Positions 8,644 through 26,521 of a stretch of DNA of 64,000 nucleotides are shown here, piece by piece (position 1 is the stretch's first letter; each line of letters opens with the position of its first letter). Made by a program: the position numbers and the translations under genes. The DNA is from Ruegeria arenilitoris (GTDB lineage Bacteria > Pseudomonadota > Alphaproteobacteria > Rhodobacterales > Rhodobacteraceae). The stretch is from positions 186,001-250,000 of the forward strand of contig NZ_WPYP01000001.1 of NCBI RefSeq assembly GCF_013030985.1, read 5' to 3'. Below the pieces are notes generated by a model, which was not told the origin of the DNA, did not search any database, and saw only the letters and a list, made by a program, of their open reading frames with translations.

Positions 8644-8658
8644 CAAAACTTCAACAGA

Positions 8659-8672
8659 CCCCGAAAACGGGG
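8659..8672 (+). promoter_or_regulatory. Intercistronic stem-loop before the binding-protein gene
   Basis: CCCCG-AAAA-CGGGG forms a 5-bp stem with a four-base loop in the 56-base gap between the permease and binding-protein genes. There is no T-run. Such hairpins often protect the neighbouring mRNA segment so that the binding protein is made in excess; that role is inferred here. Confidence 0.4.
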
Positions 8673-8699
8673 CACCAACAACAACTAGGAGATATGAAG

Positions 8700-9689
8700 A
8701 TGAACAAGCTACTCAGCGGGGCGGTTGCCGCCTTCAGCCTGGCAGCCAGCGCGGCGCTGGCAGCGGATGAGGTGACATTGCAGCTCAAATGGGTCACGCA
8801 GGCGCAGTTCGCGGGCTACTACGTGGCCAAAGATAAAGGGTTCTACGAAGAAGAGGGCTTGGACGTCACCATTCTGCCGGGTGGCCCTGATATCGCACCG
8901 ACGCAGGTGATCGCGGGCGGTGGTGCTGATGTGACCGTTGAGTGGATGCCTGCGGCGCTGGCCGCGCGCGAAAAGGGTCTGCCGCTGGTCAACATCGCGC
9001 AGCCGTTCAAAAGCTCGGGCATGATGCTGACATGCTGGAAGGACGCCGGGATTTCCTCACCCGAGGATCTGAAGAACCGCACTTTGGGTGTATGGTTCTT
9101 TGGCAACGAATTCCCGTTCATGAGCTGGATGAGCCAGTTGGGCATCGACACCGGCGGCAAGAGCGACAGCGGTGTCGAGGTTCTGAAGCAAGGCTTCAAC
9201 GTCGATCCTCTGTTGCAGCGTCAGGCCGATTGCATCAGCACCATGACCTATAACGAATACTGGCAGGTCATCGACGCAGGCGTCAGCCCGGATGAGCTGG
9301 TGACTTTCAAATACGAAGATCAGGGCGTCGCCACGCTGGAGGACGGCCTGTACGTTCTGGAAGAAAACCTCAACGATGCGGCGTTCACCGACAAGATGGA
9401 GCGTTTCGTCCGGGCCTCGATGAAGGGCTGGAAATACGCCGAAGAGCATCCTGATGAGGCTGCCGATATCGTCCTAGAAAATGACGCCACCGGTGCCCAG
9501 ACTGAAGAGCATCAGAAGCGCATGATGGGTGAGATCGCCAAGCTGACCGCCGGTTCGAACGGTGCGCTGGACCCGGCGGATTTCGAACGCACCGTGGGCA
9601 CTCTGTTGGCTGGCGGGTCCGATCCGGTGATCACCAAGCAACCCGAGGGCGCCTGGACACATCAGATCACGGATGCAGCTCTGAACTGA
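8700..9689 (+). CDS. ABC transporter substrate-binding protein, NMT1/THI5 type
   Basis: A periplasmic binding protein of 329 residues. Signal peptide MNKLLSGAVAAFSLAASAALA is followed by ADEVTLQLKWVTQAQFAGYYVAKDKGFY, the characteristic start of the THI5/NMT1-ThiY-RibY group that binds pyrimidine or flavin-like ligands. The start at 8700 is 7 bases after AGGAGA; an in-frame ATG at 8694 is too close to that site. The open frame extends much further upstream but there it overlaps the permease gene in another phase. Context suggests a pyrimidine nucleobase or derivative as ligand; the true ligand cannot be read from the sequence. Confidence 0.88.
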   Translation: MNKLLSGAVAAFSLAASAALAADEVTLQLKWVTQAQFAGYYVAKDKGFYEEEGLDVTILPGGPDIAPTQVIAGGGADVTVEWMPAALAAREKGLPLVNIAQPFKSSGMMLTCWKDAGISSPEDLKNRTLGVWFFGNEFPFMSWMSQLGIDTGGKSDSGVEVLKQGFNVDPLLQRQADCISTMTYNEYWQVIDAGVSPDELVTFKYEDQGVATLEDGLYVLEENLNDAAFTDKMERFVRASMKGWKYAEEHPDEAADIVLENDATGAQTEEHQKRMMGEIAKLTAGSNGALDPADFERTVGTLLAGGSDPVITKQPEGAWTHQITDAALN

Positions 9690-9842: not shown

Positions 9843-10556
9843 ATGCAGGGATTTGCAACGGAATTCAACTCAGCCTTGTCTCTGATCCTCCAAGGGGATG
9901 CAGAACTGTGGGCGATTGTGCTGTTATCCCTCAAAGTTTCCATCTTCGCCGTCCTGATTTCCGCTCTGATCGGGATGCCTGTCGGGGCCGCGCTCGCGGT
10001 TGCGCGGTTTCCGGGGCGGCGCGCTGTGATCGTGCTGATGAACGCCCTGATGGGGTTCCCACCGGTTGTCGTGGGGTTGCTGGTCTATCTGATGCTGTCG
10101 CGCTCGGGACCGTTGGGCGTTCTTGAACTGCTTTACACGCCGACCGCCATGATCATCGCGCAGGTCGTACTGGTCACACCTATTGTTGCGGCACTGACCC
10201 GGCAAGTGGTCGAGATGCTGGCCGAGGAATATTCGGAACAGCTGCGCTCGTTAGGTGTGTCGCGGCTGGCCTCGGTGCCGGTGCTGCTGTGGGATGCACG
10301 GCTGGCGCTGGTAACCGCATTGCTGGCCGGGTTTGGCCGCGCGATTGCCGAGGTCGGGGCAGTTATCATCGTCGGCGGCAACATCAACCATGTGACCAGG
10401 GTGATGACGACGACCATCGCGCTTGAGACGTCCAAGGGCAACCTAGCGCTGGCCTTGGCGCTGGGGGCCATCCTGATCGGGATTGCCATAGCTGTGAATG
10501 CCATGGTCAGCACGCTCAGCCTGCGGGCCGAGCAGGAGGGGTTGCGCCATGCGTGA
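9843..10556 (+). CDS. tupB: Tungstate ABC transporter permease TupB
   Basis: A 237-residue permease of the TupB/WtpB/ModB group with five to six helices and the coupling loop around EMLAEEYSEQLRSLGVSRLASVP. It pairs with the TupC ATPase and the TupA binding protein that follow. The family imports tungstate with very high affinity across the inner membrane. A run AGGTAG precedes the start weakly. The gene overlaps tupC by 8 bases. The downstream formate dehydrogenase cluster is the likely consumer of the metal. Confidence 0.88.
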   Translation: MQGFATEFNSALSLILQGDAELWAIVLLSLKVSIFAVLISALIGMPVGAALAVARFPGRRAVIVLMNALMGFPPVVVGLLVYLMLSRSGPLGVLELLYTPTAMIIAQVVLVTPIVAALTRQVVEMLAEEYSEQLRSLGVSRLASVPVLLWDARLALVTALLAGFGRAIAEVGAVIIVGGNINHVTRVMTTTIALETSKGNLALALALGAILIGIAIAVNAMVSTLSLRAEQEGLRHA

Positions 10557-11283
10557 TCTGGTCAATGAAATGACTAGCTGTCTATCGGTCGACGGGGTGC
10601 GGATCACCCGCAAAGGTAAGGCGTTGCTGGATGTAGAGCACCTGTCGATGGATGGGCCGGGACCGACTCTGATCCTTGGGCCGAACGGGTCGGGCAAAAG
10701 TCTGCTTTTGCGCTGCCTGCACGGGCTAATCGTGCCCGATCGCGGGCAGGTCCGGCAGGACGGAGTGGTCCTGAATGCCGAACACAAGGCGCGGCAGGCG
10801 ATGGTGTTTCAGCAACCCGTGTTGCTGCGCCGGTCGGTTGCGGCCAATCTGGATTTCGTACTGAAACGGCAAGGACTGTCCCGCAGCGCCCGCAAAGCCC
10901 GTATCGAGGAGTTGCTGACCGAAGGTGGGTTGGACGGCAAGGCCCGGCAATCCGCGCGGTCCCTGTCCGGGGGGGAGGCGCAACGGCTGGCGATCCTGCG
11001 CGCTCTTGCCTTGGACCCCGAAACGCTGTTTCTGGACGAACCCACCAGCGCGCTAGACCCAAGCGCAACGCAGATGATCGAACGGATGATCCTGCGCGCC
11101 TCGACCCGTGGGGTCCGGATCGTCATGGTCACGCATGACATCGGGCAGGCTCGGCGGTTGGCCGCCGATATCGTGATGATGCAGGGCGGCCATGTGGTTG
11201 AACATGGGGCCGCCAAACAGATACTGGATGCCCCCGAAAGTGACGCGTCGCGTCGGTATTTGGCTGGTGGGCTGGTGACTTAA
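10549..11283 (+). CDS. tupC: Tungstate ABC transporter ATPase TupC
   Basis: The 244-residue ATP-binding subunit. Walker A is GPNGSGKSLLLRC, the signature is LSGGEAQRLAILRAL, Walker B is TLFLDEPTSALDP, and the switch histidine is in MVTHDIGQA. The start at 10549 was chosen over the longer frame from 10498 because AGGAGGGG precedes it by about 8 bases and the extra residues repeat the tupB end in another phase. There is no C-terminal TOBE/molybdate-binding domain, as expected for TupC rather than ModC. Confidence 0.88.
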   Translation: MRDLVNEMTSCLSVDGVRITRKGKALLDVEHLSMDGPGPTLILGPNGSGKSLLLRCLHGLIVPDRGQVRQDGVVLNAEHKARQAMVFQQPVLLRRSVAANLDFVLKRQGLSRSARKARIEELLTEGGLDGKARQSARSLSGGEAQRLAILRALALDPETLFLDEPTSALDPSATQMIERMILRASTRGVRIVMVTHDIGQARRLAADIVMMQGGHVVEHGAAKQILDAPESDASRRYLAGGLVT

Positions 11284-11303
11284 TCAAAATAATGGAGATC
11301 GAA

Positions 11304-12119
11304 ATGATCCGGAATATTGTTCGGGCAGCAGTGGTAACTCTTGGCCTGACGGCAACGTCAGTCAGCGCCGAAGAGCCGTTTATCGTCGTGCAATCGACAA
11401 CATCAACGCAGAACTCGGGCCTGTTGGATTACATCCTGCCGGGGTTTGAGGCCGAGACGGGCATCGACGTTCGTGTCGTCGCAGTTGGCACCGGGCAGGC
11501 GATCCGCAATGCAATCAACGGAGATGGGGACGTATTGCTGGTGCACGCCAAAGACGCGGAAGAGAAGTTCGTCGCGGATGGTTGGGGCGTTGAGCGGTTC
11601 GACGTGATGTATAACGATTTCGTCCTGGTCGGGCCGAAATCGGACCCGGCCAAGATTAAGGGTGGCGCGGATATCGTGGCGGCGTTGAGCGCCGTGGCCG
11701 AGGCCGAGGCGCCCTTTGCCTCTCGCGGGGATGACAGTGGCACCCACAAGGCCGAGATGCGCCTGTGGGGTGCTGCCGGTTCCGATCCGACCGAGGCGTC
11801 GGGCGAATGGTACCGAGAGACGGGCTCGGGCATGGGGGCGACACTCAACGTGGCCAGCGGAATGGACGCCTACGTGTTGACGGATCGCGCCACGTGGCAG
11901 TCCTTTGGGAACAAGGGCAAACTCGAAGTTCTGGTCGAAGGCGACCCGCGTTTGTTCAACCAATACGGTGTCATCCTTGTGAACCCCGAAAAGCACCCGC
12001 GTGTGCGGGCTGCGGCGGGGCAGAGGTTCATCGACTGGCTGACTGGTCCGGATGGGCAGGCGGCGATCGAGTCCTATAAGCTGGAAGGTCAGCAGCTGTT
12101 CTTTCCCAACGCCAAGTGA
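11304..12119 (+). CDS. tupA: Tungstate-binding periplasmic protein TupA
   Basis: A 271-residue binding protein with signal peptide MIRNIVRAAVVTLGLTATSVSA. The two hallmark oxyanion loops are present: QSTTSTQNSGLLDYILP near residue 30 and SRGDDSGTHKAE near residue 140. These separate TupA from ModA and phosphate-binding proteins. The start at 11304 follows GGAG at a good distance; the frame's earlier ATG at 11292 lacks one. Tungstate is the family ligand; some members also bind molybdate. It ends 6 bases from the convergent regulator gene without an obvious terminator. Confidence 0.9.
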   Translation: MIRNIVRAAVVTLGLTATSVSAEEPFIVVQSTTSTQNSGLLDYILPGFEAETGIDVRVVAVGTGQAIRNAINGDGDVLLVHAKDAEEKFVADGWGVERFDVMYNDFVLVGPKSDPAKIKGGADIVAALSAVAEAEAPFASRGDDSGTHKAEMRLWGAAGSDPTEASGEWYRETGSGMGATLNVASGMDAYVLTDRATWQSFGNKGKLEVLVEGDPRLFNQYGVILVNPEKHPRVRAAAGQRFIDWLTGPDGQAAIESYKLEGQQLFFPNAK

Positions 12120-12125
12120 CCGAGG

Positions 12126-12998
12126 CTAACCGCTTGCGCCGTTGTGGTGGATCGTCCCCAGACCGGACAGATCATATCCACCGAACTCGGCGGCGCGGGT
12201 GGTGAAACGGTCCGATTGCACGAATCCAAGCAGTTTGAGCATCGGGTCGTCGAAATAGGCCCGCCGCCAGATCGCAAGGTCCAGACGTTCTGAATGGGTC
12301 GGGGAAAAGCCAAGATCATAAAGGCCTGCCAAAGCCCCCAGTCCGAACCCGGCCTCGGCCTTGCTGTCATGCAGGGCTATGGCCAGTTCCTCTTCGGTGC
12401 GGGCGCAAGTGGGCAGGGCGTCCAGATCCTCGCGCGTCAGACTGTGGGCCTTGAGCTCTGCGTCGAACAGCCGTTGGCTGGCGGCGCTGTCCTGACGCAG
12501 GATCACCCGGCGACCTTTCAGGTCTGCAAAGCCCGCTATACCGGAGACATCGGGTGCCAGCAGCAGCCCGCGTTTCCTGCGCGCGACTTCATACAGAACA
12601 ACCGGGGCCTCACCCAGATTGTCGCGCAGGGCCTGCGTGTTGAACCCATCGTCTTCGTGGATATGCAATGCGGCGGCTTGCGCTGTTCGGTCCTTCAGGC
12701 GGGTCAAGCCGTCGAACGAGCCATCATAATAGGTAGCCAGACCCGAGCCACTTTCGCGCAAGGCCCAGTCCAGCAGCGGATCGTGACTGCCAGCGACAAT
12801 CGGGGGCAGGGGCGGTTCAGCCACCTGCGGGCCAGAACGGGATGCGTTCAGCCACGCAATAACTTCGGCCCGGGGAAACAGCAGCTTGCCCATGGCGCGG
12901 ACGCAGGGGACCTCGCCGGAAGAAGCCAGATCATAGGCCTTGCGCTCGCCAATGCGCAGCAGGTCGGCCAGTTCTTTGGTCGTCAGATATTCGGACAT
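12126..12998 (-). CDS. Excisionase-type HTH regulator with periplasmic-binding-protein-like domain
   Basis: A 290-residue predicted regulator. Residues 1-50 are a MerR/excisionase-type HTH (LTTKELADLLRIGERKAYDLASSGEVPCVR...FPRAEVIAWL). The rest resembles a binding-protein fold (AGSHDPLLDWALRESGSGLATYYDGSFDGL, then FADLKGRRVILRQDSAASQRLFD). Proteins of this build are often found beside molybdate or tungstate genes, so oxyanion sensing is inferred. It starts directly after the stop of the 41-residue gene (TGA then ATG), making it the last gene of the formate dehydrogenase run, and it converges on tupA. It is a good candidate to tie metal supply to enzyme synthesis. Confidence 0.78.
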   Translation of the reverse strand: MSEYLTTKELADLLRIGERKAYDLASSGEVPCVRAMGKLLFPRAEVIAWLNASRSGPQVAEPPLPPIVAGSHDPLLDWALRESGSGLATYYDGSFDGLTRLKDRTAQAAALHIHEDDGFNTQALRDNLGEAPVVLYEVARRKRGLLLAPDVSGIAGFADLKGRRVILRQDSAASQRLFDAELKAHSLTREDLDALPTCARTEEELAIALHDSKAEAGFGLGALAGLYDLGFSPTHSERLDLAIWRRAYFDDPMLKLLGFVQSDRFTTRAAEFGGYDLSGLGTIHHNGASG

Positions 12999-13124
12999 TC
13001 AGTCGAGCCGCACCGCCGCACCAGAGCCCGCGTCAGCGGCGCTGAACCCGATCTGTTGCAAAGTGAAGGGCGCGGCGACGGTAATTACGACCATTGCGGC
13101 CACAGCGGCAAGAAAGGCTTTCAT
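12999..13124 (-). CDS. 41-residue exported or membrane protein in the formate dehydrogenase operon
   Basis: A small gene with a strong ribosome-binding site (GGAGGAG 5-6 bases before the ATG). Its start overlaps the stop of the WD40-cytochrome gene as ATGA, and its stop abuts the regulator start. The protein begins MKAFLAAVAAMVVITVAAPF, a single hydrophobic helix or signal peptide, and continues with a short tail ending GAAVRLD. I do not recognise a characterised family. The tight coupling on both sides supports a real gene with a role linked to the dehydrogenase complex. Confidence 0.75.
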   Translation of the reverse strand: MKAFLAAVAAMVVITVAAPFTLQQIGFSAADAGSGAAVRLD

Positions 13125-14398
13125 TGGTCTCCTCCGGTTCCGTTTTCCGGTGCTGTCGCACGGCGCAGAAAAGTGATCAGGTCGTCCCGGTCGCTGGCCT
13201 GTGTGATCCGCTGCATCGGCATCTTTGACCCCGGTATGTAGTGGTCTGGCCCCTGATCGAAAAGGGCGTTTATCGTTTCGTCATTCCAAATGATATCAGA
13301 GTCTTGCAGCGTGTCCGAGTAGAAATATCCCGGCAGCGTGCCAGCCTTGCGGCCAAAGATGCCATGCAGGGTCGGACCCGCGCGCCGTTGCCCGTCGGGC
13401 GTCAGGCTGTGACAGATCGAGCATTTGCGGGCGAACTGGCGTTCTCCGTTGCTCATCTCATCGGGGTTTTTCAGAAAGCTGGGTTCGGTGGCGGCCATCT
13501 GCGTCTGGTCGCCAAGCGCGGTGACGGGCCAGCTGTACATTGCCTCATCAAGACCGCCTGCGTGCAGGTTCTGACCGTCGGGAGAAAAGGCCAGCGCCCA
13601 GACCGGCCCGCGCAGGGTGGCGCGGAAATCCTGCGCGATACGCCACTCGGCGGTGTCGATCACCATGATGTATCCCTGACCATCGCCCACAGCCAACAGG
13701 CTGCGATCCGGGCTGAGCGCCAGCGCCAGAATAGGGCGGCGTTCGAGGGTAAAGTCGCGCACATCCCCGGTGGTCAGGTCCAGAATGCGGGTGACGCCGT
13801 CCACCGCGCCATAGGCGATCCAATTGTCCCGGGCATTCAGAACCAGTTCGTTGATCCCAAACCCGTGTTCGATCAGCCGTCCGGTCTCCTGCCCGGTGGC
13901 CACATCCCACTCCCGCAGCGTTCCGTCCATGCCCGCCGAATACAGCGTCGAACCATCCGGGGAAAACGTCACGGCGTTCACACCGCTGCCTGCCTCAAGC
14001 CTTTGCGAGGCTGATCCATCCTCGGGCCACAGCCCGATCGTACCATCCCAACTGGCAGTAGCCACATGGGTTTTCGAGGCCGCAAGTCCCACGATCTTAC
14101 CCTTGTGCTGGCCGACAATCTCTCCGCCCGGCCAGCGGCGCAGGGTGAAGTCATCTCCGGCCGAATAGATCGCGCGCCCGTTGAAGGCGACAGAGTTGAC
14201 GGCGGCCTCGTGCCCCTCCAGCCATTCGGGCTTGCGGTCCGACCACAGACCAACGGAATTGTCGAAACTGGCAGTGGCAATCCGCCCGTCGGGCGCAGCG
14301 GCGATCCCCATGATCGGCCCGCCGTGACCTTTCAGCGTGAAAAACTCGCCCAAGGCGGGCAGGGGAACCAGCGCCAGTGCCAGAGCCAGCCAGCGCAT
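13121..14398 (-). CDS. WD40-repeat protein fused to a C-terminal cytochrome c
   Basis: A 425-residue exported protein. After signal peptide MRWLALALALVPLPALG come about seven WD40-like blades (residues 22-290; repeats such as IATASFDNSVGLW, VATASWDGTIGLW, LYSAGMDGTLREW). A class I cytochrome c domain follows, with heme motif CSICH (residues 326-330) and a likely axial Met at 393 (GSKMPMQRI). It should sit in the periplasm as an electron carrier or docking platform for the formate dehydrogenase. The start is directly adjacent to the cytochrome b gene stop (TAGATG), and the end overlaps the 41-residue gene. Its exact partner is not known to me. Confidence 0.87.
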   Translation of the reverse strand: MRWLALALALVPLPALGEFFTLKGHGGPIMGIAAAPDGRIATASFDNSVGLWSDRKPEWLEGHEAAVNSVAFNGRAIYSAGDDFTLRRWPGGEIVGQHKGKIVGLAASKTHVATASWDGTIGLWPEDGSASQRLEAGSGVNAVTFSPDGSTLYSAGMDGTLREWDVATGQETGRLIEHGFGINELVLNARDNWIAYGAVDGVTRILDLTTGDVRDFTLERRPILALALSPDRSLLAVGDGQGYIMVIDTAEWRIAQDFRATLRGPVWALAFSPDGQNLHAGGLDEAMYSWPVTALGDQTQMAATEPSFLKNPDEMSNGERQFARKCSICHSLTPDGQRRAGPTLHGIFGRKAGTLPGYFYSDTLQDSDIIWNDETINALFDQGPDHYIPGSKMPMQRITQASDRDDLITFLRRATAPENGTGGDQ

Positions 14399-15601
14399 CT
14401 ATTCGGCGGGTGAGGCCGCAGCCTTGCCGGCCTCTTTGTCCTGCACCTCTTCCAGCCACAGCGAGTGATGCTCGCGCGCCCATTGCTCTTCGACCTCACC
14501 CGAGCCCATCGCATCGAAGGCGCCTTCCATGCCGACCGAGCCGAGATAGATGTGGGCGATGATGATGGCGATGAACACATAGGCGACCATCACGTGCCAG
14601 ACCTGAGCGTATTGCATTTCCTCTTGCGGAGACATCTGCGATGGCAGGGTTAGCCCGAACATCTGGGGAATGCCGGTCGAGTTGGCGATCTCGAAAGTCT
14701 TTGCAAACATCGGCAACTCAAACGGAAACAGCAGGGACAGGCCCGACAGGCTGATCGAAACACCCAGCAGGATGCAGGCCCAGAAGATCACCTTTTGACC
14801 TGCGTTGAACTTTTTGGCGGGCGGGTGGCTGCCCTTGGTGAACAGTCCCCCTCCGGCTGCCAGCCATTTCAGGTCTGTGCGGTTGGGGATGTTGTGGGCG
14901 ATCCAATTCACGGTGACGATGATCAGCCCCAGGATAAAGGACCAAGCCAGATTGTTGTGCAGCCATTTGCAGCCTTGGGCGATGGTCGCGAAGCCTTCTT
15001 TGCCGAAGATCGGGATCAGGAAGTCACGCCCATAGAGAGTCAGCAACCCGGTTACCCCGAGCACCAAGAAAGACCCGGCGAATAGCCAGTGGCCGAAACG
15101 TTCGAAGCCGTTAAAACGGGTGACGGTGCGGCCGGTCTTTTCCCCGTCAATGCGGATTTTCCCGCGGATCAGGAAGAACAGAACGATAATGGCGACCATC
15201 CCGCCCAAGATGTAAGTACCGTATTCACGCAGTGGCCCGGTGCGGAAGGTCAGCCACCACATTCCACCATCCTGAATCAGGACGCCCGCTGCGGGGCCTT
15301 TGGACGAAACCGTAGTATCCGCCGAGCCATATCGTATGGCGCGGTAAACATCGCTGTCGGACGCAATGCCGCGTGTACCGAGCTGACCCAACAAACCCTC
15401 GGCATTCCCCTGACCGGTGTTTCCCGAGCGATAGCTGTTATCCACTTTCTCACCGCGTTGCCGTGCGAGGATATCCTCAAGCGTGGTCGCGCCACCGGTT
15501 TGGGCGCGTTCTTCGGTTGTGGCTTCTGCCTCGGTGGACTGCGCCAGAGCGGCGCTGGTTAACCCCAGGGCGAACAGGAATGCGATGAACAAGCGGAACA
15601 T
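14399..15601 (-). CDS. fdoI: Formate dehydrogenase gamma subunit, cytochrome b556
   Basis: A 400-residue membrane subunit that should pass electrons from the iron-sulfur subunit to quinone. Signal peptide MFRLFIAFLFALGLTSAALA is followed by a periplasmic segment of about 100 residues that the short E. coli FdoI lacks. The cytochrome b domain has four main helices with heme-binding histidines (FERFGHWLFAGSF, HNNLAWSFILG, VWHVMVAYVFIA, IAHIYLGSVGMEGAFDAM). The start at 15601 was chosen because it opens a signal peptide and follows GAGG. The extended N-terminus is usual in alphaproteobacterial versions. Confidence 0.9.
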   Translation of the reverse strand: MFRLFIAFLFALGLTSAALAQSTEAEATTEERAQTGGATTLEDILARQRGEKVDNSYRSGNTGQGNAEGLLGQLGTRGIASDSDVYRAIRYGSADTTVSSKGPAAGVLIQDGGMWWLTFRTGPLREYGTYILGGMVAIIVLFFLIRGKIRIDGEKTGRTVTRFNGFERFGHWLFAGSFLVLGVTGLLTLYGRDFLIPIFGKEGFATIAQGCKWLHNNLAWSFILGLIIVTVNWIAHNIPNRTDLKWLAAGGGLFTKGSHPPAKKFNAGQKVIFWACILLGVSISLSGLSLLFPFELPMFAKTFEIANSTGIPQMFGLTLPSQMSPQEEMQYAQVWHVMVAYVFIAIIIAHIYLGSVGMEGAFDAMGSGEVEEQWAREHHSLWLEEVQDKEAGKAAASPAE

Positions 15602-15671
15602 CTGAACCTCGGTCAAAATTCCAAAGCAGGCGACCCGCACGGGCGGATCACCTGTTTTTCATGTAGACGGA

Positions 15672-16265
15672 TCAGCCGCCTTTTTGGTCGTAGGCCGTGC
15701 CCCAACCCCACGCGCCCGAGCCAAAGCCACGGGCGACGACACGCTCGCGGTAGATGGCCGAAACCACGTCGCCGTCACCGGCAAGCAGGGCCTTGGTGGA
15801 GCACATCTCGGCGCAAAGGGGCAGTTTGCCCTCGGCGATCCGGTTGCGACCATATTTGGCGAACTCTGCGGTCGAGTGCGTTTCCTCGGGGCCGCCAGCG
15901 CAGAAGGTGCATTTGTCCATCTTGCCGCGCGATCCGAAGTTGCCCGCCTGCGGGTATTGCGGCGCACCGAACGGGCACGCGTAGAAGCAATAACCGCAAC
16001 CGATACACAGGTCCTTGGAGTGCAGGACGACGCCTTCTTCGTTCTGATAGAAGCAGTCGACCGGGCACACCGCCATACAGGGCGCATCCGAGCAATGCAT
16101 GCAGGCAACCGAAATCGAGCGTTCGCCCGGGTTGCCGTCATTGATCGTCACCACCCTACGGCGGTTGATGCCCCATGGGACCTCGTGCTCGTTCTTGCAC
16201 GCGGTGACGCAGGCGTTGCACTCGATGCAGCGTTCAGCGTCGCAGAGAAACTTTGCTCTAGCCAT
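15672..16265 (-). CDS. fdoH: Formate dehydrogenase beta subunit, 4Fe-4S electron transfer protein
   Basis: A 197-residue ferredoxin-type subunit that wires the catalytic subunit to the cytochrome b. Four cluster motifs are seen: CIECNACVTACKNE, CMHCSDAPCMAVCPVD, CIGCGYCFYACPFG, and CTFC with CAEMC near residues 140-170. It is shorter than E. coli FdoH (about 300 residues) and lacks the C-terminal membrane anchor, so it should depend on the gamma subunit for docking. It begins 11 bases after the alpha gene. Confidence 0.92.
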   Translation of the reverse strand: MARAKFLCDAERCIECNACVTACKNEHEVPWGINRRRVVTINDGNPGERSISVACMHCSDAPCMAVCPVDCFYQNEEGVVLHSKDLCIGCGYCFYACPFGAPQYPQAGNFGSRGKMDKCTFCAGGPEETHSTAEFAKYGRNRIAEGKLPLCAEMCSTKALLAGDGDVVSAIYRERVVARGFGSGAWGWGTAYDQKGG

Positions 16266-16276
16266 TATCGTCCTCC

Positions 16277-19171: not shown

Positions 19172-19302
19172 TGGTTTCCTCCCTTGCTCGCCATGTCAGC
19201 CATGGCTGGCTTGGTACTTTTTGTGCCGACGTCAGGGCCAATCGCAACCGTCAGTCGGGTGGTGACGTCGTCCGGTTCAGAGCCGGGCGCTGTCGTCGCG
19301 GC

Positions 19303-19491
19303 TCAGAAGCGCGCGCTTTCCAAATAGGCGCGGGTATGCGCGGTGTCCTGTATCCGGGTTTCGTCCGTTGGCAACTTGGCTGCTTCGGCCTCTCCGGTCA
19401 GGCTGGCGGCGGCAACAGCAGCAGGCGCTGCGGTTCCGGCCAGTTTGAGGAAGTCGCGGCGCGTGGCGCCTTCTTCCTTGGTCTTGCTCAT
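19303..19491 (-). CDS. Small Tat-targeted protein of formate dehydrogenase clusters
   Basis: A 62-residue protein with a twin-arginine motif (ATRRDFLKLAG) and a short tail ending LESARF. It matches the pattern known as the formate dehydrogenase region TAT target family, whose role is unresolved. The start at 19491 follows a perfect AAAGGAGGAAC; an in-frame ATG 18 bases upstream has none and would contain the ribosome site. It lies between torD and the alpha subunit gene and may escort or tether the exported enzyme. Confidence 0.85.
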   Translation of the reverse strand: MSKTKEEGATRRDFLKLAGTAAPAAVAAASLTGEAEAAKLPTDETRIQDTAHTRAYLESARF

Positions 19492-19549
19492 GGGTTCCTC
19501 CTTTCCCATTTGCGATCTAGCGCCAATTCGGGCGCTGGCGAGTGGCGGG

Positions 19550-20161
19550 TTATGCCGCCGTCATTCGGAACGCTTCCCGCTCGATCTCCATGAACACCCG
19601 ACCGGCGGTGCCGACGGACGCATAGAGAACCGAGTTCTCGGCTGCTTCCAAATCCGAATAGAAATGCGTGGCCCAGGGGCCGATATGTTTGTTCCAGAAC
19701 GCTTTCTGATCCTCAAGCGAGGCAGGCGCGCCAAAGCGGCCAACAATCATGCCCGCCATCATCTCCATCAGCGAGGCGATGTTGTCTTCGGGTTCGAACA
19801 CGTTCTGCGCCCGCGTGATGCCGCGTGCGGCCATGTCGTTGCGCAGCTGGGCCAGAGGTTTCTCGTTCAGGAAGCCGGTGAGGTAGAAACTGGCATAGGG
19901 CAGCAGCTCACCTCGGCCGAGTCCAATGAACAGGGCGTTGAACTCACGTTCGGCCGCCGCGGGTTTGGTGACCTTTGCCACCCGCGCCATGGCCTGAATG
20001 GCCTGACCCAGATCGGTCTCATCCCCGGTCAGGCTAGCCACCTGTTCCAGCAGCATCTGATCCGGAGGAGCGGCCAACATCAGCCCGAGAAAATTGTAGA
20101 AATCCGCGCGCAGGCGATCTTCGGTCGAGACGTCCATTTGATGCGCCTTACTTGCGGTCAT
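19550..20161 (-). CDS. TorD/DmsD family chaperone
   Basis: A 203-residue all-helical chaperone for molybdoenzymes. The typical segments are LRADFYNFLGLMLAAPP, ELLPYASFYLTGFLNEKPLAQLR, and EPEDNIASLMEMMAGMI with the conserved E.D.I..L.E..A.L pattern. It should bind the Tat signal of the alpha subunit and hold it for cofactor loading. The start at 20161 overlaps the DUF3306 gene by 14 bases and follows AAGGATAT. Confidence 0.88.
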   Translation of the reverse strand: MTASKAHQMDVSTEDRLRADFYNFLGLMLAAPPDQMLLEQVASLTGDETDLGQAIQAMARVAKVTKPAAAEREFNALFIGLGRGELLPYASFYLTGFLNEKPLAQLRNDMAARGITRAQNVFEPEDNIASLMEMMAGMIVGRFGAPASLEDQKAFWNKHIGPWATHFYSDLEAAENSVLYASVGTAGRVFMEIEREAFRMTAA

Positions 20162-20726
20162 GGGGATATCCTTCGAATTCAAATTTCATGCGGCGCGGGG
20201 TGGGGGGCAGGTCGACCTCTTCGGGGGCTTCTGCTTCGGCGATAACGAGCGGCTCGGGCGTCGGTTCATCACTCACCTCTGGCTCCGGTTCCTCAGTGAC
20301 CGGTTCAGGCTCACTCTCTTCGGCTTCCGCAGCCAAAGCTTCGATATGGGCCAACATGCCCTTGCCAACCTGATAGGCGGTGGGAATGTTTTCGATCACA
20401 CACACCGCGTCGGTATAGTCCTCACCGTAATCAACCAGCCCGTCCACATTGGCCAGCACCGGGTTCAGCCGCCACAACCGCCGCAGCGCGCGACGGCGCA
20501 GACGGTCGGGCACCGCCTTGGCCATGAAGCCCGAGACGTCATCCCCGTCCTGCAACTGATCGGGATCGGGAAGGTTGAACTCGGCCAGTATCTCGGCATC
20601 CGACTTTTCGTCCAGCTCGGCCTGCTGCGCTGCGACTGCCTGTTCTTCGGCCGCGATAACCTCGGCTTCGGCCTCGGCCTGAACAGCGGCCTTGCGGCGG
20701 GACCAGAAATCGCGGGCTTGGGTCAT
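20148..20726 (-). CDS. DUF3306 family protein
   Basis: A 192-residue protein of the DUF3306 family found in formate dehydrogenase clusters. The N-terminal two thirds hold FWSRRKAAV, SDAEILAEFNLPDPD and a basic stretch LRRRALRRLWRLNPVLANVDGLVDYGEDYTD. The C-terminal third is a low-complexity acidic and proline-rich tail (EPEPVTEEPEPEVSDEPTPEP), probably disordered. It is cytoplasmic, with no signal. It is coupled by ATGA overlap to DUF3305 upstream and overlaps torD downstream. Its biochemical role is unknown. Confidence 0.85.
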   Translation of the reverse strand: MTQARDFWSRRKAAVQAEAEAEVIAAEEQAVAAQQAELDEKSDAEILAEFNLPDPDQLQDGDDVSGFMAKAVPDRLRRRALRRLWRLNPVLANVDGLVDYGEDYTDAVCVIENIPTAYQVGKGMLAHIEALAAEAEESEPEPVTEEPEPEVSDEPTPEPLVIAEAEAPEEVDLPPTPRRMKFEFEGYPHDRK

Positions 20727-21277
20727 TGCACGATCCTCCGCGGGGCGCGGTAGACATCCGAGGTCTGACGGATACGGGCATCGCCTTTGCCGTCCTCGAC
20801 CAGATCGGTCCGCTTCTTGTCGCGACGGCGTTTGATGAAAACCTCATCGCGGTGGTGTTCCAACGCGAAGTCGCGAACCCAGGCGATCAGCCCCTCGGTC
20901 ATCGGGATTTTTTCGACGATCTCTTCTCCGGTATCCGCATAATCCTGCCCTTCGAACGGGGACGCCGTGACAAGCACCGCATCCATTGGGCGCTCTCCAT
21001 CCAGAGCATCACGCAGAACAAGATAGATCGAGGGCTGGCCGTCGGAGAGGTTGACCATGTAGGCCTCGGCCTCATCGGGCCATAGCGTAAGCGGGAGGGT
21101 CGCCGCGTGATACTCCACAGCTTCACCCTCGCGGCGCAGTTCCTGCCAGTCGGCAGGTCCAGCACCGGGCAAAACGGCAACTGCGCGCCAGTTCCATTTC
21201 GCCCAGCGGGTTACACCGGGTGTTTTGCGCACGACGACGCCGATTGGCATTTCAATCTGGCTTGCGGCCTTCGCCAC
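20723..21277 (-). CDS. DUF3305 family protein
   Basis: A 184-residue protein of the DUF3305 family, partner of DUF3306 in formate dehydrogenase loci. Recognisable parts are MPIGVVVRKTPGVTRWAKWNWRAVAVLPGA, LWPDEAEAYMVNLSDGQPSIYLVLR and VLVTASPFEGQDYADTGEEIVEKIPMTEGL. It is cytoplasmic. It is the first gene of the minus-strand run that ends with the HTH regulator, and its promoter must lie in 21278-21508, shared with the divergent polyferredoxin gene. Confidence 0.85.
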   Translation of the reverse strand: MAKAASQIEMPIGVVVRKTPGVTRWAKWNWRAVAVLPGAGPADWQELRREGEAVEYHAATLPLTLWPDEAEAYMVNLSDGQPSIYLVLRDALDGERPMDAVLVTASPFEGQDYADTGEEIVEKIPMTEGLIAWVRDFALEHHRDEVFIKRRRDKKRTDLVEDGKGDARIRQTSDVYRAPRRIVQ

Positions 21278-21311
21278 TTAGTCCTCCCCGGAAGGCTCTC
21301 CCCTGCCTTCC

Positions 21312-21377
21312 ATTGCGTCTACTATGGTACACAATCCGGCTTTGTGCCAAGCCTGAACTGTTCCCAATGGACGCAAT
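21312..21377. promoter_or_regulatory. Inverted repeat in the divergent formate dehydrogenase promoter region
   Basis: ATTGCGTC (21312-21319) and GACGCAAT (21370-21377) are perfect 8-bp inverted copies 50 bases apart, in the 231-bp gap between two divergent gene sets. Paired distant half-sites suit a looping or oligomeric regulator. No cognate protein is identified. Confidence 0.4.
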
Positions 21378-21508
21378 CACCAATTGTTTATGAGGCTGCG
21401 CCCTTTCATAGACCCGGTACGCAGGTAGTTTGTCTAGCGGGGATTGCCACTTTTTGCAGACACCCTAATCTGAACCCAAGAAGGGAAGGACGTCCGGGAG
21501 GGGAGGCC

Positions 21509-23461
21509 ATGGGCACAAAAATTCTGCTATGCGACTGTGCGGGGACGCAGGAACTGGACGCCGAGAAGATCGCGTCGGCCTGCGGTGCTGCGTGTTCCCG
21601 GGTTCATACGGCGCTGTGTACCACCGAACTGGAATCTGCGGCCTCGCTGATGCAGGCCGGGGACACCGTGATTGCCTGTGGGCAGGAGCAGGAGGTGTTC
21701 AGCGCGCTTGCCGAAGAGATGAATATCGAAACGCCGGGGTTTGTGGACCTGCGCGACCGCGCCGGATGGTCCGAGCAGGGTGCTAATGCGGTGCCCAAGA
21801 TGGCCGCCCTGGCCGCCGAGGCGATGCTACCGCAGCCGATCACACCCAGCGTGGACGTGTTCAGCGAGGGCACCTGTTTCCTCATCGGGCCGGGGGAGCC
21901 GTGTTTTGATCTGGCCGAACGTCTGGCAACGACGCTGGCGGTTACGGTGCTGGTCACCGATGACGCCCAGCCGTTCTCGCGGGCCTATGACGTGGTGCGC
22001 GGGCGGGTACGGTCGCTGACCGGTGCGCTGGGCGGGTTTTCGTTGCGGCTGGACGCCCTGCAGCAGGTCGAGCCGGGCGGGCGTGGTGCTTTTGCGTGGT
22101 CCGCGCCGCGCGACGGGGCGAAATCCGCCTGTGACATCGTGATCGACCTGACCGGGGGAACGCCGTTCGTGCAAGCCCCCGCGAAGCGTGAGGGGTATTT
22201 GCGCGCCGACCCGAGGGATAAAGTCGCCGTCGAGCGTCTGGCCTTTGAGGCAGTACAACTGGTCGGAACCTTCGAAAAACCGCTCTACGTGCGGATGGAA
22301 GAGACGCTGTGCGCCCATTCCCGTGCCGAACAGGTGGCTTGCACCAACTGTCTGGATATCTGCCCAACAGGTGCGATCACTCCGGCTGGTGAGCATGTGA
22401 CCATCGATCCAATGATCTGCGCCGGGTGTGGCGAATGCGCGGCGGTGTGCCCGTCAACGGCGATCACCTACGAAGACCCGCCGGTTTCGGCCCTGTTGTC
22501 TCGGATGCACATTCTTGCGTGCACTTATCGGCGCGCAGGTGGCACCGCACCCCGGTTGTTGGTGCATGACGCCCACGGGGCCGAGATGATCCGGCTGGCC
22601 GCCCGGTTCGGTCGCGGCCTTCCTGCGGACGTTATTCCGTTAGAATTGAACGTGATCTCGGGCTTTGGCCATGCCGAGATGTTGGCCGCACTGGCGCACG
22701 GCTTTGCCCGGGTCGATGTGCTGCTGGCTCCGGCCACCGAACGCGATGCGCTGGTCCGGGAACTGGAACTGGCGCAGGCGATTGCCGGGCCGGGTAAGAC
22801 GGAGCTGATGGATGAGGCTGACCCGGACGCGTTGGTGTATTTGCTATATGCGCAGGAAGTCCCGCCACCTCTGGCGGATCCGGTGCTGCCTCTGGGCAAT
22901 CGAAGACAAATCGCGCGGCTGTCGGCGCAGGCGCTGAACCCGCAGGCGGAGACTCCGTTGCCCTTGCCCGAAAACGCGCCTTACGGGGCCGTGGCAGTGA
23001 ATACGGATGCCTGCACATTGTGCCTCAGCTGTGTCTCTCTCTGCCCGTCGGGTGCATTGGTTGATAACCCGGACAAACCGCAGTTGAACTTCCAGCAGGA
23101 TGCCTGCCTGCAATGTGGGCTGTGTAAGGGGATATGCCCCGAGGACGCGATTACGCTGGTTCCGCAGCTTGACCTCTGTGATGCGGCCTTATCGCAGCTG
23201 GTGTTGAATGAAGAGGAACCCTTTGCCTGTGTCGAATGCGGCGCCTTGTTCGGTGTGAAGTCAACCGTCGAGCGGATCATGGAGAAGCTTTCGGGTACGC
23301 ATCCGATGTTTGCCACCTCGGACAAGGCCCGGATGATCCAGATGTGCGACAATTGCCGTGTGAACACGCAGTTCCAGCAGCAGGACAACCCGTTTCAGTC
23401 CAATCCCAAGCCCAAGGTGGTTACGACCGAGGACTATTTCTCAAAACGCAAGGATCACTGA
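21509..23461 (+). CDS. Polyferredoxin-like 4Fe-4S protein with zinc-ribbon-like end
   Basis: A 650-residue iron-sulfur protein of formate dehydrogenase loci. Residues 1-260 contain scattered cysteines and no clear known fold. Two pairs of 4Fe-4S motifs follow: CTNCLDICPTG with CAGCGECAAVCPS (about 279-317), and CTLCLSCVSLCPSG with CLQCGLCKGICPED (about 502-544). The end carries CVEC (574-577) and CDNC (613-616), a possible metal site. The start at 21509 follows GGGAGG; the frame is open further upstream but without support. It may pass electrons to or from the dehydrogenase or help assemble it. It ends with a 7-base convergent overlap with the cytochrome gene. Confidence 0.85.
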   Translation: MGTKILLCDCAGTQELDAEKIASACGAACSRVHTALCTTELESAASLMQAGDTVIACGQEQEVFSALAEEMNIETPGFVDLRDRAGWSEQGANAVPKMAALAAEAMLPQPITPSVDVFSEGTCFLIGPGEPCFDLAERLATTLAVTVLVTDDAQPFSRAYDVVRGRVRSLTGALGGFSLRLDALQQVEPGGRGAFAWSAPRDGAKSACDIVIDLTGGTPFVQAPAKREGYLRADPRDKVAVERLAFEAVQLVGTFEKPLYVRMEETLCAHSRAEQVACTNCLDICPTGAITPAGEHVTIDPMICAGCGECAAVCPSTAITYEDPPVSALLSRMHILACTYRRAGGTAPRLLVHDAHGAEMIRLAARFGRGLPADVIPLELNVISGFGHAEMLAALAHGFARVDVLLAPATERDALVRELELAQAIAGPGKTELMDEADPDALVYLLYAQEVPPPLADPVLPLGNRRQIARLSAQALNPQAETPLPLPENAPYGAVAVNTDACTLCLSCVSLCPSGALVDNPDKPQLNFQQDACLQCGLCKGICPEDAITLVPQLDLCDAALSQLVLNEEEPFACVECGALFGVKSTVERIMEKLSGTHPMFATSDKARMIQMCDNCRVNTQFQQQDNPFQSNPKPKVVTTEDYFSKRKDH

Positions 23462-24183
23462 AACTGTAGCGGCGCACCCAGATCGGCCGCCTTGATGACC
23501 GAGACGAAAGCCAGGATGGCGTCCAGCTCTTCCACGGTCATCTCGACCGGATGTATGGGCGAGGGGCGCGCGGGATCAAAAGGTGCGGTCAGCCCGTCGA
23601 TCTGGGTGAAAGCGGGATGGGGGTTCAGCGCAAAGAACGCCTCAAACCGTTCCGACCAGTCGGGCATCGCGCGCAGCACGGCAAAAGAGGGCGTAGAGCC
23701 CAACCCGTTCATGCGGTTCTTTGGCCCGATCACGTGGCAGCGTCCGCAATGGGTCATCGACAGTTCCTCACCTCGGGCGGTGTCACCGTCGATTACCGGG
23801 TCGGCTTGTGTCGCTGTGGCCTCGATACGGGCAGAGAAGGGCGTGCCGTGTTCGGGTGTAAAGCTTTCTACAGTGTTCTTGCCGATATCGGACAACAGCC
23901 AGTCGCGGAACCGTTCGTGCCTGGCGTTGTCTCCGATCCGGAGGTGATAGATCACGCCGTCGCGGGCAAAGACCGGATCGCCTGGTGGCGCGGTTTCCAG
24001 CACTAAAACGCCCGCATCATCCGCAATAACGCGTATCCCGGTCTTGAGAGAGAAGCGCGGAAGGATATGTTGCAACAGACCAGAGTCTTTTACCTCGGCC
24101 GGGGCGGCCAGACCCAATGCCTCCTGCGACCAAGAGGGACTGGCAGAGAGCGTCAGGCTCAGGCACAAGAGGACAAAGCGCAT
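23455..24183 (-). CDS. Exported cytochrome c with a TupA-like N-terminal remnant
   Basis: A 242-residue exported protein with signal peptide MRFVLLCLSLTLSASPSWS. Its C-terminal half is a cytochrome c with heme motif CGRCH (146-150). Residues 25-115 resemble two separate pieces of TupA: DSGLLQHILPRFSLKTGIRV against NSGLLDYILPGFEAETGIDV, and RFRDWLLSDIGKNTVES against RFIDWLTGPDGQAAIES. The middle of TupA, including its second oxyanion loop, is missing, and the TTST loop is not kept. The start at 24183 opens a signal peptide; an earlier ATG at 24258 does not. A periplasmic electron carrier for formate oxidation is likely. Confidence 0.82.
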   Translation of the reverse strand: MRFVLLCLSLTLSASPSWSQEALGLAAPAEVKDSGLLQHILPRFSLKTGIRVIADDAGVLVLETAPPGDPVFARDGVIYHLRIGDNARHERFRDWLLSDIGKNTVESFTPEHGTPFSARIEATATQADPVIDGDTARGEELSMTHCGRCHVIGPKNRMNGLGSTPSFAVLRAMPDWSERFEAFFALNPHPAFTQIDGLTAPFDPARPSPIHPVEMTVEELDAILAFVSVIKAADLGAPLQFQ

Positions 24184-24291
24184 GGCCCAGCCTAACGGCC
24201 CGGCCCCGAATGCGTCAAATGAACTGAACAAGACGGAGACACATGCAATGAAACGCAACCTCGTGGTGGGTCAAGTCAAAGGGGTAACGGC

Positions 24292-25353
24292 ATGAGTGTT
24301 CGTGACGCGGTTCTGGCGAACCTGAAGAAGATCACTGATCCTGTGTCTGGTCAGGATATCGTCAGCGCGGGTGTGGTGCGTGCGTTGAACGTCGAGGGCG
24401 ACACGGTGCGCTTTGTGCTGGAGATTGACCCGAAATACGCCGAGCAGATGGAGCCGGTTCGCGCGACCGCCGAGAAGGCGGCGCAGATGGTGGACGGGGT
24501 GGCCAAGGTCTCGGCGATGATGACCGCGCATTCCGACAAGGCGCCGCCGGATCTGAAACCTAAGCCCAAGCCCTCGCAAACCGGTCCGCAGGCCGTTCCG
24601 GGCGTGGACCGGATTATCGCCGTAGCTTCGGGTAAAGGTGGCGTCGGTAAATCCACCGTTTCGGCCAACCTCGCCTGTGCCTTGGCGGCCGAAGGCCGTC
24701 GTGTGGGTCTGTTGGACGCCGACGTCTACGGCCCGTCGCAGCCCCGGATGCTGGGTGTCTCAGGCCGGCCGGCCAGCCCGGATGGCAAGACCATCCTGCC
24801 GTTGCGCAATCACGGCGTCACCATGATGTCGATGGGTCTGATGACCAATGAAGGGCAGGCGGTTGTCTGGCGTGGTCCCATGCTGATGGGCGCGCTGCAG
24901 CAGATGATGAACCAGGTGCAATGGGGCGCGCTGGACGTGCTGATCGTTGACCTGCCGCCCGGAACCGGTGACGTGCAACTGACGCTCAGCCAGAAGTTCA
25001 AGGTGGATGGCGCCATTGTTGTTTCCACCCCGCAGGACGTGGCCCTGATCGACGCCCGCAAGGGGATCGACATGTTCAACCAGCTCAAGACGCCCATCGT
25101 TGGTATGATCGAGAATATGTCCACCCATATCTGTTCCAACTGCGGGCATGAGGAGCACGTGTTCGGTCATGGCGGCGTGAAGTCCGAGGCCGAGGCGCTG
25201 GACGTTCCGCTGCTGGGGGAAATTCCTCTGCATCTGGATATCCGGGTGGCGGCGGACGGTGGTGCGCCCATCGTGGTCAGCAAACCCGACAGCCCGCAGG
25301 CCGAGGCGTTCCGCAAGATCGCCCGCGATATGATTGCCAAGGGCAAGGCATGA
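24292..25353 (+). CDS. Mrp/NBP35 family iron-sulfur carrier ATPase
   Basis: A 353-residue P-loop ATPase that binds and transfers 4Fe-4S clusters. The N-terminal 80 residues are a MIP18/DUF59 domain (VLANLKKITDPVSGQDIVSAGVV). The deviant Walker A is SGKGGVGKST (113-122), followed by LLDADVYGPSQPRMLG and VDLPPGTGDVQLTL. The cluster ligands are CSNC in THICSNCGHE. A strong GGGG-rich site precedes the start. Its stop overlaps the next start (ATGA), so it heads a three-gene set next to the formate dehydrogenase cluster and may serve that enzyme's clusters. Confidence 0.9.
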   Translation: MSVRDAVLANLKKITDPVSGQDIVSAGVVRALNVEGDTVRFVLEIDPKYAEQMEPVRATAEKAAQMVDGVAKVSAMMTAHSDKAPPDLKPKPKPSQTGPQAVPGVDRIIAVASGKGGVGKSTVSANLACALAAEGRRVGLLDADVYGPSQPRMLGVSGRPASPDGKTILPLRNHGVTMMSMGLMTNEGQAVVWRGPMLMGALQQMMNQVQWGALDVLIVDLPPGTGDVQLTLSQKFKVDGAIVVSTPQDVALIDARKGIDMFNQLKTPIVGMIENMSTHICSNCGHEEHVFGHGGVKSEAEALDVPLLGEIPLHLDIRVAADGGAPIVVSKPDSPQAEAFRKIARDMIAKGKA

Positions 25354-26042
25354 CCCAGCCGGTCTTTCCCCCCTTGCTGTCGGGCCATCCGGTGCAGGGT
25401 GGGGAAGATCCGTTCGAACGCGCACAGTCCATGGCGGCGCTGGGCTGTGACGCCGGGTCGGTCGTTTACAACATTCAGGCCGACCGGCTGCGGGTGGCGA
25501 TTGTATTCGCGCCCGAGGTTGCGTTGCAGGATGCCATGGCGATGTTGCCCCTGTGCGCTGTCGGGTTCCAGAACGCGCTGGGCGCACTGGCCCCGCCCGA
25601 GGTGGCCGTGCATCTGGGCTGGGACGGATTGATCTGCGTGAACGGTGCGAAATGCGGTGCGTTCCGTGTCGCAGCGTCCACAGCAACTGCGAACGAAGAG
25701 CCCGACTGGTTAGTGGTCGGATGGGAACTGGCGCTGATGCAAACCAGCGTGACACCGGGAGAAACTCCGGAAGTAACGGCCCTCTATGACGAAGGCTGTG
25801 CCGAGGTTTCGCCGGTGCAACTGGTCGAAAGTTGGTCGCGGCATATGCTGACCTGGCTCAACCGCTGGCAAGAGGACGGCAATGCGCCGCTGCACGGTGA
25901 ATGGATGGGCTTGTTACGTGGTGTCGGCGAACCCTGTGACACCGGCGTTTTTCTGGGCACGGACGAACGCTTTGGGATGCTGATCCGCGACGGTGCCGAA
26001 ACCCACCTGCGCCCCCTGACCGAATTGTTGGAGAACGGATGA
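25350..26042 (+). CDS. Biotin/lipoate ligase-like protein (DUF4444 type)
   Basis: A 230-residue protein related to the biotin/lipoate A/B protein ligase fold, of the kind with a C-terminal DUF4444-like part (GEWMGLLRGVGEPCDTGVFLGTDERFGMLIRDG). A lysine is present in NGAKCGAFRV, where ligases place their catalytic lysine, but the usual biotin-binding GRGR motif is not seen. It overlaps Mrp and the next gene by ATGA on both sides. True ligase activity is uncertain; the fixed position with Mrp suggests a maturation role. Confidence 0.72.
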   Translation: MTQPVFPPLLSGHPVQGGEDPFERAQSMAALGCDAGSVVYNIQADRLRVAIVFAPEVALQDAMAMLPLCAVGFQNALGALAPPEVAVHLGWDGLICVNGAKCGAFRVAASTATANEEPDWLVVGWELALMQTSVTPGETPEVTALYDEGCAEVSPVQLVESWSRHMLTWLNRWQEDGNAPLHGEWMGLLRGVGEPCDTGVFLGTDERFGMLIRDGAETHLRPLTELLENG

Positions 26043-26521
26043 TGAAACTGGCCCGCGCGATCCATTTCGATGAAAGCGACATTAACGTCTTCCATTCCCC
26101 GGCCCGAACCGGAGAATGGTGCATCTCGGGCGGGTTCGAGTTTTCGAACTGGGGGCAGGCCGATCTGGAAGGTAAGGCGCGACAGGCCTTTTCGAACGGC
26201 TGGCTGGGGGTCGAGACATTCGGACGGGTGACCTTTGTAGCCGTCACACAGATCGAACAGTCGGAACTGGACCAGATCGCGCGAAATCTGGCCGAGCATT
26301 TCGTGCAATTCTACGGCGCGCCTTCGGTTGAGGCCGCGTTGGGTGTGGCGCAGACCGAGATCACCCATATGGCCGAACTGTGTGAGGAACACGCGCCCAA
26401 TACTCTGCTGACCGTTGCGCGCGAATTGTCCGAAAGTGGCGTGCACGAGGCATTTCGCATCATCACCCCACAGGAAACGCAGCTTGAGGCTCTGGCCGTT
26501 CACGGCTCGTTGGATGATTAA
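26039..26521 (+). CDS. DUF6505-type hypothetical protein
   Basis: A 160-residue cytoplasmic protein with no signal or membrane segment. It begins MMKLARAIHFDESDINVFHSPA and contains EFSNWGQADLEGKARQAFSNGWLG, which I associate with the DUF6505 family. No catalytic motif is visible. It is coupled by ATGA overlap to the ligase-like gene and ends in a 4-base convergent overlap with the flavin reductase gene. Function unknown. Confidence 0.68.
   Translation: MMKLARAIHFDESDINVFHSPARTGEWCISGGFEFSNWGQADLEGKARQAFSNGWLGVETFGRVTFVAVTQIEQSELDQIARNLAEHFVQFYGAPSVEAALGVAQTEITHMAELCEEHAPNTLLTVARELSESGVHEAFRIITPQETQLEALAVHGSLDD

Follow-up and report, generated by a model that had tools for sequence, protein, structure and literature searches.

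A probable tungsten formate dehydrogenase island in Ruegeria arenilitoris encodes a cytochrome fused to half of a tungstate-binding protein

The stretch of DNA analysed here (the window) comprises 64,000 nucleotides of the 4.76-Mb genome of Ruegeria arenilitoris, and between positions 9843 and 26521 it holds an island in which the genes of a formate dehydrogenase (FDH) stand beside those of a TupBCA-type tungstate importer and of many accessory proteins. We consider it probable, at roughly 0.6, that this island serves the tungsten supply, maturation and electron transfer of the FDH, and that one of its cytochromes, named TupCyt here, is a dedicated partner docked by means of a repurposed tungstate-binding lobe. 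TupCyt joins the first lobe (lobe A) of a TupA-type tungstate-binding protein to a c-type heme domain. The domain architecture of this half-TupA cytochrome is new, and no paper on it or on the island was found in the open-licence PMC literature. An earlier description of the window (the sequence-only reading) had proposed a single system around a tungsten-dependent periplasmic enzyme. All the genes that it named were found side by side at or near the places it gave, with domain assignments that hold in Pfam and NCBIfam searches of the open reading frames, but it overlooked the lobe-A domain at the N-terminus of the second cytochrome.

The enzyme is of the FDH3 type. FdhB scores 344.3 bits against the curated cut-off of 240 of NF038355 ("formate dehydrogenase FDH3 subunit beta"), FdhC scores 139.6 bits against the cut-off of 115.85 of TIGR01583 (cytochrome b gamma subunit), and FdhA exceeds the cut-offs of the molybdopterin-oxidoreductase domains PF00384, PF01568 and PF04879, with a cysteine and not a selenocysteine in its ARICHST motif. 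FdhA falls below the cut-offs of the FDH-N and general Fdh-alpha models (TIGR01553, 344.4 vs 814.2 bits; TIGR01591, 483.4 vs 666.25 bits) and is therefore not an FDH-N alpha subunit proper. Structure 9vap contains close relatives of both FdhA (1419 bits to 9vap_A) and FdhB (335 bits to 9vap_B). Paralogous FdhABC sets, matching FdhA at 58-61%, were seen at three loci (L111, G231:C4; L112, G208:C43; L113, G226:C12) with none of the island accessory genes in the 20 kb fetched.

The accessory genes had been expected to co-occur with the enzyme, and for most of them this was borne out in a sample of 159 genomes of the family, about one per genus. With FdhA counted as present at E <= 1e-200, the FDH3 type was found in 79 of these genomes, including divergent members at 60-63% identity (G191, G196, G198, G226). 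DUF6505, counted when over its cut-off, occurs in 80 genomes, that is, in 76 of the 79 with FDH3 and in 4 of the 80 without; genome G224 holds DUF6505 and no FdhA. Strong matches to the ligase-fold protein BPL are distributed in the same way (76/79 vs 3/80, or 77/79 vs 5/80 if three weak PF16917 matches in G171, G214 and G282, with E ~1e-11 to 1e-13, are counted). The heme domain of TupCyt, with or without its lobe, is present in 58 of the 79 genomes and in 3 of the 80; in these three (G180, G229, G318), which are the FDH3-negative genomes that were re-inspected, the island loci are truncated at the ends of contigs, and two of the loci hold the start of FdhA. In a class-level sample of 162 genomes, FdhA was found in 26 and DUF6505 in 16, of which 15 also have FdhA (overlap counted by eye). 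The absence of DUF6505 from 11 of the 26 genomes with FdhA marks it as a lineage-limited addition.

Gene order was compared among 77 loci, of which 62 are uncut by contig ends; two of the 82 FdhA places (G167:C36, G282:C125) and the three paralogue loci stand outside these counts. The uncut loci contain TorD (62), the polyferredoxin-like protein pFd (61), DUF3305, Mrp and BPL (60 each), DUF3306 and DUF6505 (59 each), the protein with a twin-arginine translocation signal (TAT protein; 54) and TupCyt (48), while the WD40-cytochrome (42), TupA or TupB (35) and the 41-residue protein p41 (31) are scarcer; among all 77 loci, the WD40-cytochrome is present in 50, p41 in 37 and the regulator in 17. 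The order and orientation of a ten-gene core are conserved in 53 of the 62, and TupCyt lies between the polyferredoxin and Mrp in 47 of the 48 loci that have it. Five loci (L076, L077, L104, L108, L109) keep much of the gene set in other orders. Among the best 80 of 342 relatives in GTDB r220, which were confirmed by one peptide pattern, are close relatives and have 10-kb flanks that mostly stop short of the importer, 71 loci are uncut, with Roseibium (Stappiaceae) among them, and every one contains FdhA, FdhB, TAT, TorD, DUF3306, DUF3305, polyferredoxin, Mrp, BPL and DUF6505.

It might be argued that such a neighbourhood is ancestral synteny within one family, its genes having no joint function, in that most of the evidence comes from a single family and p41, the regulator, the WD40-cytochrome and the importer are variable. 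We regard this as very improbable, given that DUF6505 and BPL are absent where FDH3 is absent, with only the few exceptions given above, that FdhA accompanies DUF6505 in 15 of 16 genomes at the class level too, that the importer has been attached at both ends of the island and in both orientations, and that the divergent loci L076, L077 and L108 hold the set in other orders.

The importer leads to the question of which metal the enzyme carries. With a profile of the TupA family (A2), made from 31 sequences after leaving out 2 truncated ones of 33 matches, the solved TupA-like proteins 3muq, 5my5 and 3lr1 are recovered, none at an E above 2.2e-92. In the alignment of these 31 sequences, T36, T37 and S38 are conserved at 90% or more, and R145, T151 and D198 are invariant; from their spacing, the latter would be the equivalents of R118, T124 and D170 of 5my5. 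The regulator found no match among PDB sequences. As a control, we considered the alpha subunit of a MeFDH1-like, NAD-linked FDH in the same genome (L002; G000:C32:90006-92354), which among solved proteins matches the tungsten enzyme 7vw6/8j83 best (1100.5 bits, vs 531.3 for 6tg9, which we take to be the R. capsulatus enzyme), and which is likely to be the second tungsten enzyme of this genome. It occurs in 99 of the 159 family genomes. With TupA counted as present at E <= 1e-30, the importer was found in all 72 genomes that have both enzymes, in 7/7 with FDH3 only, in 27/27 with the MeFDH1-like enzyme only and in 5 of the 53 with neither, two of which hold cut FDH3 loci. TupA, present in 79/79 FDH3 genomes and in the 27 others, therefore tracks both enzymes, and the view that the importer is exclusive to FDH3 was rejected, since it follows the union of the two.

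Some of these data count against a tungsten-carrying FDH3. The importer could serve the cytoplasmic MeFDH1-like enzyme, FDH3 using molybdenum and the adjacency reflecting nothing but shared regulation: none of the 99 genomes with the MeFDH1-like enzyme lacks TupA, although 27 of them have no FDH3, the best solved match of that enzyme is a tungsten enzyme, and, as TupA tracks it as well, the two enzymes cannot be told apart in 72 of the 79 FDH3 genomes. In addition, TupA and TupB are divergent and miss the equivalog cut-offs of NCBIfam (NF041772, 225.4 vs 400 bits; NF041773, 165.7 vs 320 bits). We nevertheless hold this alternative to be unlikely. TupA is kept in all seven FDH3 genomes that lack the MeFDH1-like enzyme, compared with 5 of the 53 that lack both (p 2e-6), which is the cleanest sign, if an indirect one, that FDH3 needs tungsten. 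In 39 of 79 genomes, TupA is also no more than 15 kb away from FDH3, and it is that close to the MeFDH1-like gene in 3 of 99; among the 72 genomes with both enzymes, it has FDH3 nearby in 35 and the other enzyme in 2. Where the importer is within reach of the island (35 of the 62 uncut loci), it lies on the far side of FdhC in 20, ten for either orientation, and on the far side of DUF6505 in 15, 14 in one orientation and 1 in the other; that it was attached repeatedly, and at different places, suggests that the linkage has been selected and not merely inherited. From the co-occurrence with TupA and from this linkage, the FDH3-type periplasmic enzyme most likely carries tungsten.

TupCyt consists of a TupA lobe A (residues ~20-121) followed by a heme domain (~130-242) with the motif CGRCH at 146-150 and His189. 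It is a c-type cytochrome, with CxxCH in a cytochrome c domain: C146, C149 and H150 are present in 53/53 sequences, and PF00034 is matched by 49 of the 53 at E up to 1, the window protein being just at the cut-off with 21.3 bits. The heme domain has two invariant histidines, and the heme probably has two histidine ligands. TupCyt is not a TupA, as only lobe A could be aligned, lobe B is absent and the position of the TTS motif is not conserved. Since lobe B and the oxyanion site are gone, it would be unable to bind tungstate in the manner of TupA. Set against the TupA of Desulfovibrio alaskensis (5my5), as far as the excerpted account of that protein goes (PMC5517513), TupCyt is without lobe B (R118, T124, D170), is without TTTS and has a cytochrome c fused to it. 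The lobes of TupCyt form one clade with no TupA inside, and, for what is a short lobe, 52 of the 53 are nearer to clade I of TupA (mean identity 26.6% vs 21.9%).

Homologues of TupCyt that have no lobe are found at FDH3 loci of three other families (L194, L195, L196), adjoining the WD40-cytochrome and tupBCA in L194 and occupying the slot between polyferredoxin and Mrp in L196, and also in two genomes of the family (L203, L204). Their position at FDH3 loci elsewhere makes the heme domain a companion of FDH3 in its own right, which gained the lobe later (a loss of the lobe would be the less simple account). These same homologues would fit the idea that TupCyt is merely an electron-exit cytochrome and that its lobe does nothing, having been left over from a gene fusion, a possibility that we take to be unlikely. 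The lobe is full-length in the 53 aligned sequences, has invariant residues of its own (P42, R43, F44, K47, W95, G101) and is modelled with a predicted local confidence score (pLDDT) >90 over most of residues 21-120. Its new, invariant surface signature PRFxxK would most likely make it a protein-docking or activation module for FdhAB. A bolder proposal makes TupCyt an activator of the metal enzyme joined to its electron acceptor, with a lobe that still recognises TupB, tungstate-loaded TupA or tungsten-loaded FdhA, so that the redox state of the heme would link the oxidation of formate with the uptake of tungstate or with the release of mature enzyme; this seems improbable to us.

The dedicated, docked role of TupCyt also has evidence pointing the other way. 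Foldseek alone gave no match to the TupCyt model at E <= 0.001 and placed an unrelated entry first, TupA-like proteins ranking second to fourth (E 0.057-0.17), and of the two TupA pieces, just the first was spanned by the hhalign alignment; VIA-align barely tested the cytochrome part of the model. No match to TupCyt was found in 21 of the 79 FDH3 genomes, some of them cut by contig ends, so it is not essential. Finally, the closest parallel, as described in the relevant part of PMC7391723, is one of analogy and not a test of homology: like TupCyt, XoxG and XoxJ of the lanthanide methanol dehydrogenase are a cytochrome and a partner of the periplasmic-binding-protein type for one periplasmic, metal-dependent C1 dehydrogenase, but they are two separate proteins and serve another enzyme with another metal.

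Concerning the maturation genes, the TAT protein scores 35.7 bits against TIGR02811 (formate TAT), below the cut-off of 48.45 (E 7.9e-9), and the match of the DUF3305 protein to a MobA-DUF3305 model, which lies in the DUF3305 portion, is also below the cut-off. Position 101 of BPL, presumably that of the catalytic lysine of BirA, is K in 3 of 64 sequences, so this presumed catalytic residue is not conserved, and Cys102 is present in 55/64. Over residues 5-227, BPL matches 3bfm (biotin protein ligase-like, "unknown function") with 268 bits, and the co-occurrence described above ties the 3bfm family to FDH3. No good fold match was found for the model of DUF6505 (pLDDT 89). Most of the 37 relatives of p41 retain a GFS...VRLD tail; p41 resembles a membrane peptide with a single span and may be one of the small subunits of the complex. 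Mrp, found in nearly every family genome (156 of 159), was rejected as an FDH-specific part as first proposed. Two or more Mrp matches occur in 53/79 genomes with FDH3 vs 8/80 without, the locus copy often being an extra paralogue; in the window genome, the island Mrp is the only match at E <= 1e-60 and may have taken over the housekeeping role. The proposal of one system is partly supported: co-occurrence bears it out for most of the accessory genes, but not for Mrp as a specific part nor for an exclusive importer, and the regulator, p41 and the WD40-cytochrome are variable members.

The island (Table 1) consists of tupB-tupC-tupA on the plus strand, a minus-strand operon that runs from DUF3305 at 21277 down to the regulator at 12126, and a right part in which the polyferredoxin and TupCyt are convergent and Mrp-BPL-DUF6505 follow on the plus strand. 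Coupling of several genes by overlaps, as proposed earlier, was confirmed with the start codons chosen: overlaps of 4 nt join p41 and the WD40-cytochrome, DUF3306 and DUF3305, Mrp and BPL, and BPL and DUF6505, and one of 8 nt joins TupB and TupC; convergent overlaps are those of pFd with TupCyt (7 nt) and of DUF6505 with a flavin reductase gene (4 nt). The two divergent gaps are the likely control regions; scans of promoters (5 found vs 3.9 in shuffled sequence) and terminators (20 vs 14.4) gave numbers near the shuffled expectation. Just upstream of tupB, at 7798-9689, lie an ABC permease gene (PF00528) and then a binding protein, which we assume to be of the thiamine-precursor type; they are linked in 6 of the 77 loci. 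The flavin reductase-domain protein (PF01613; 26518-27054), tail to tail with DUF6505, is found in 58 of the 71 close named loci vs 8 of the 62 uncut family loci.

Table 1. Genes and intergenic regions of the island, with positions in the window.
Feature	Position	Strand	Evidence and remarks
TupB-like permease	9843..10556	+	PF00528, NF038017 over cut-off
TupC-like ATPase	10549..11283	+	PF00005 over cut-off; NCBIfam matches shown all below cut-off; start chosen
TupA-like tungstate-binding protein, TTS motif at residues 36-38	11292..12119	+	PF12849 over cut-off
HTH_17 and PBP_like protein, presumed oxyanion-responsive regulator	12126..12998	-	PF12728, PF12727 over cut-off
41-residue protein (p41), one hydrophobic segment, conserved C-terminal VRLD	12999..13124	-	
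WD40 beta-propeller and cytochrome c	13121..14398	-	PF00400, PF00034 over cut-off
FdhC, cytochrome b subunit	14399..15601	-	TIGR01583 over cut-off; alternative GTG start at 15640
FdhB, iron-sulfur subunit, FDH3 type	15672..16265	-	NF038355 over cut-off
FdhA, Tat-targeted catalytic subunit, Cys ligand	16277..19171	-	Three Pfam domains over cut-off
62-residue TAT-signal protein	19303..19491	-	TIGR01409 over cut-off
TorD-family chaperone	19550..20161	-	PF02613 over cut-off; start uncertain
DUF3306	20148..20726	-	PF11748 over cut-off
DUF3305	20723..21277	-	PF11749 over cut-off
Divergent intergenic region, fdh operon/polyferredoxin	21278..21508		One promoter-like match, overall not above shuffles
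Polyferredoxin-like protein (pFd), four Fer4 stretches	21509..23461	+	PF00037 over cut-off
TupCyt: signal peptide, TupA lobe-A domain, c-type heme domain	23455..24183	-	
Divergent intergenic region, TupCyt/Mrp	24184..24291		
Mrp/ApbC-type Fe-S carrier	24292..25353	+	PF10609, PF01883 over cut-off
BPL/LplA-fold protein with DUF4444 (BPL)	25350..26042	+	PF16917, PF14563 over cut-off
DUF6505	26039..26521	+	PF20115 over cut-off

Parts of this arrangement resemble known systems. An FdhGHI operon with TorD/DmsD, a TAT protein, DUF3305 and DUF3306 has been described (PMC4464133); like the island, it has TorD beside the fdh genes, the DUF3305/DUF3306 pair and the TAT protein, whereas the excerpted description names no Mrp, BPL-fold protein, DUF6505, WD40-cytochrome, TupCyt or tungstate importer, all of which the island has. 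In Methylorubrum extorquens, the tungsten pathway of MeFDH1 includes a moeA1-mobB-tupBCA cluster, so that, as in the island, a tungstate importer is clustered with maturation genes of a tungsten FDH; according to the sections of PMC13197769 consulted, it differs in that FDH1 is cytoplasmic and the importer lies beside moeA1-mobB and not beside the enzyme and cytochromes.

We propose that TupBCA would bring in tungstate, perhaps sensed by the regulator, as its family suggests, and that this tungstate would be shared between FDH3 and the cytoplasmic MeFDH1-like enzyme. The set of DUF3305, DUF3306, TorD, the TAT protein, the polyferredoxin, the locus Mrp, BPL and DUF6505, all of which except Mrp travel with FDH3, would probably have its role in maturation (cofactor, Fe-S and Tat). 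FdhC would hand electrons to quinone, and through the WD40-cytochrome and TupCyt electrons may leave for the pool of c-type cytochromes, TupCyt probably combining a docking or activation lobe with an electron acceptor for FdhAB, as XoxJ and XoxG may be said to do together.

In summary, the island offers a testable parts list for a probable tungsten FDH of common marine bacteria, in which DUF6505 and the orphan 3bfm ligase-fold family gain a candidate enzyme, FDH3. Active tungsten FDHs are wanted for the reduction of CO2, and, as PMC13197769 and PMC13396061 state for MeFDH1, a lack of maturation factors limits their production in other hosts. In TupCyt, the ligand-binding lobe of a transporter has apparently been recruited into an electron-transfer protein of the enzyme that uses the transported metal.

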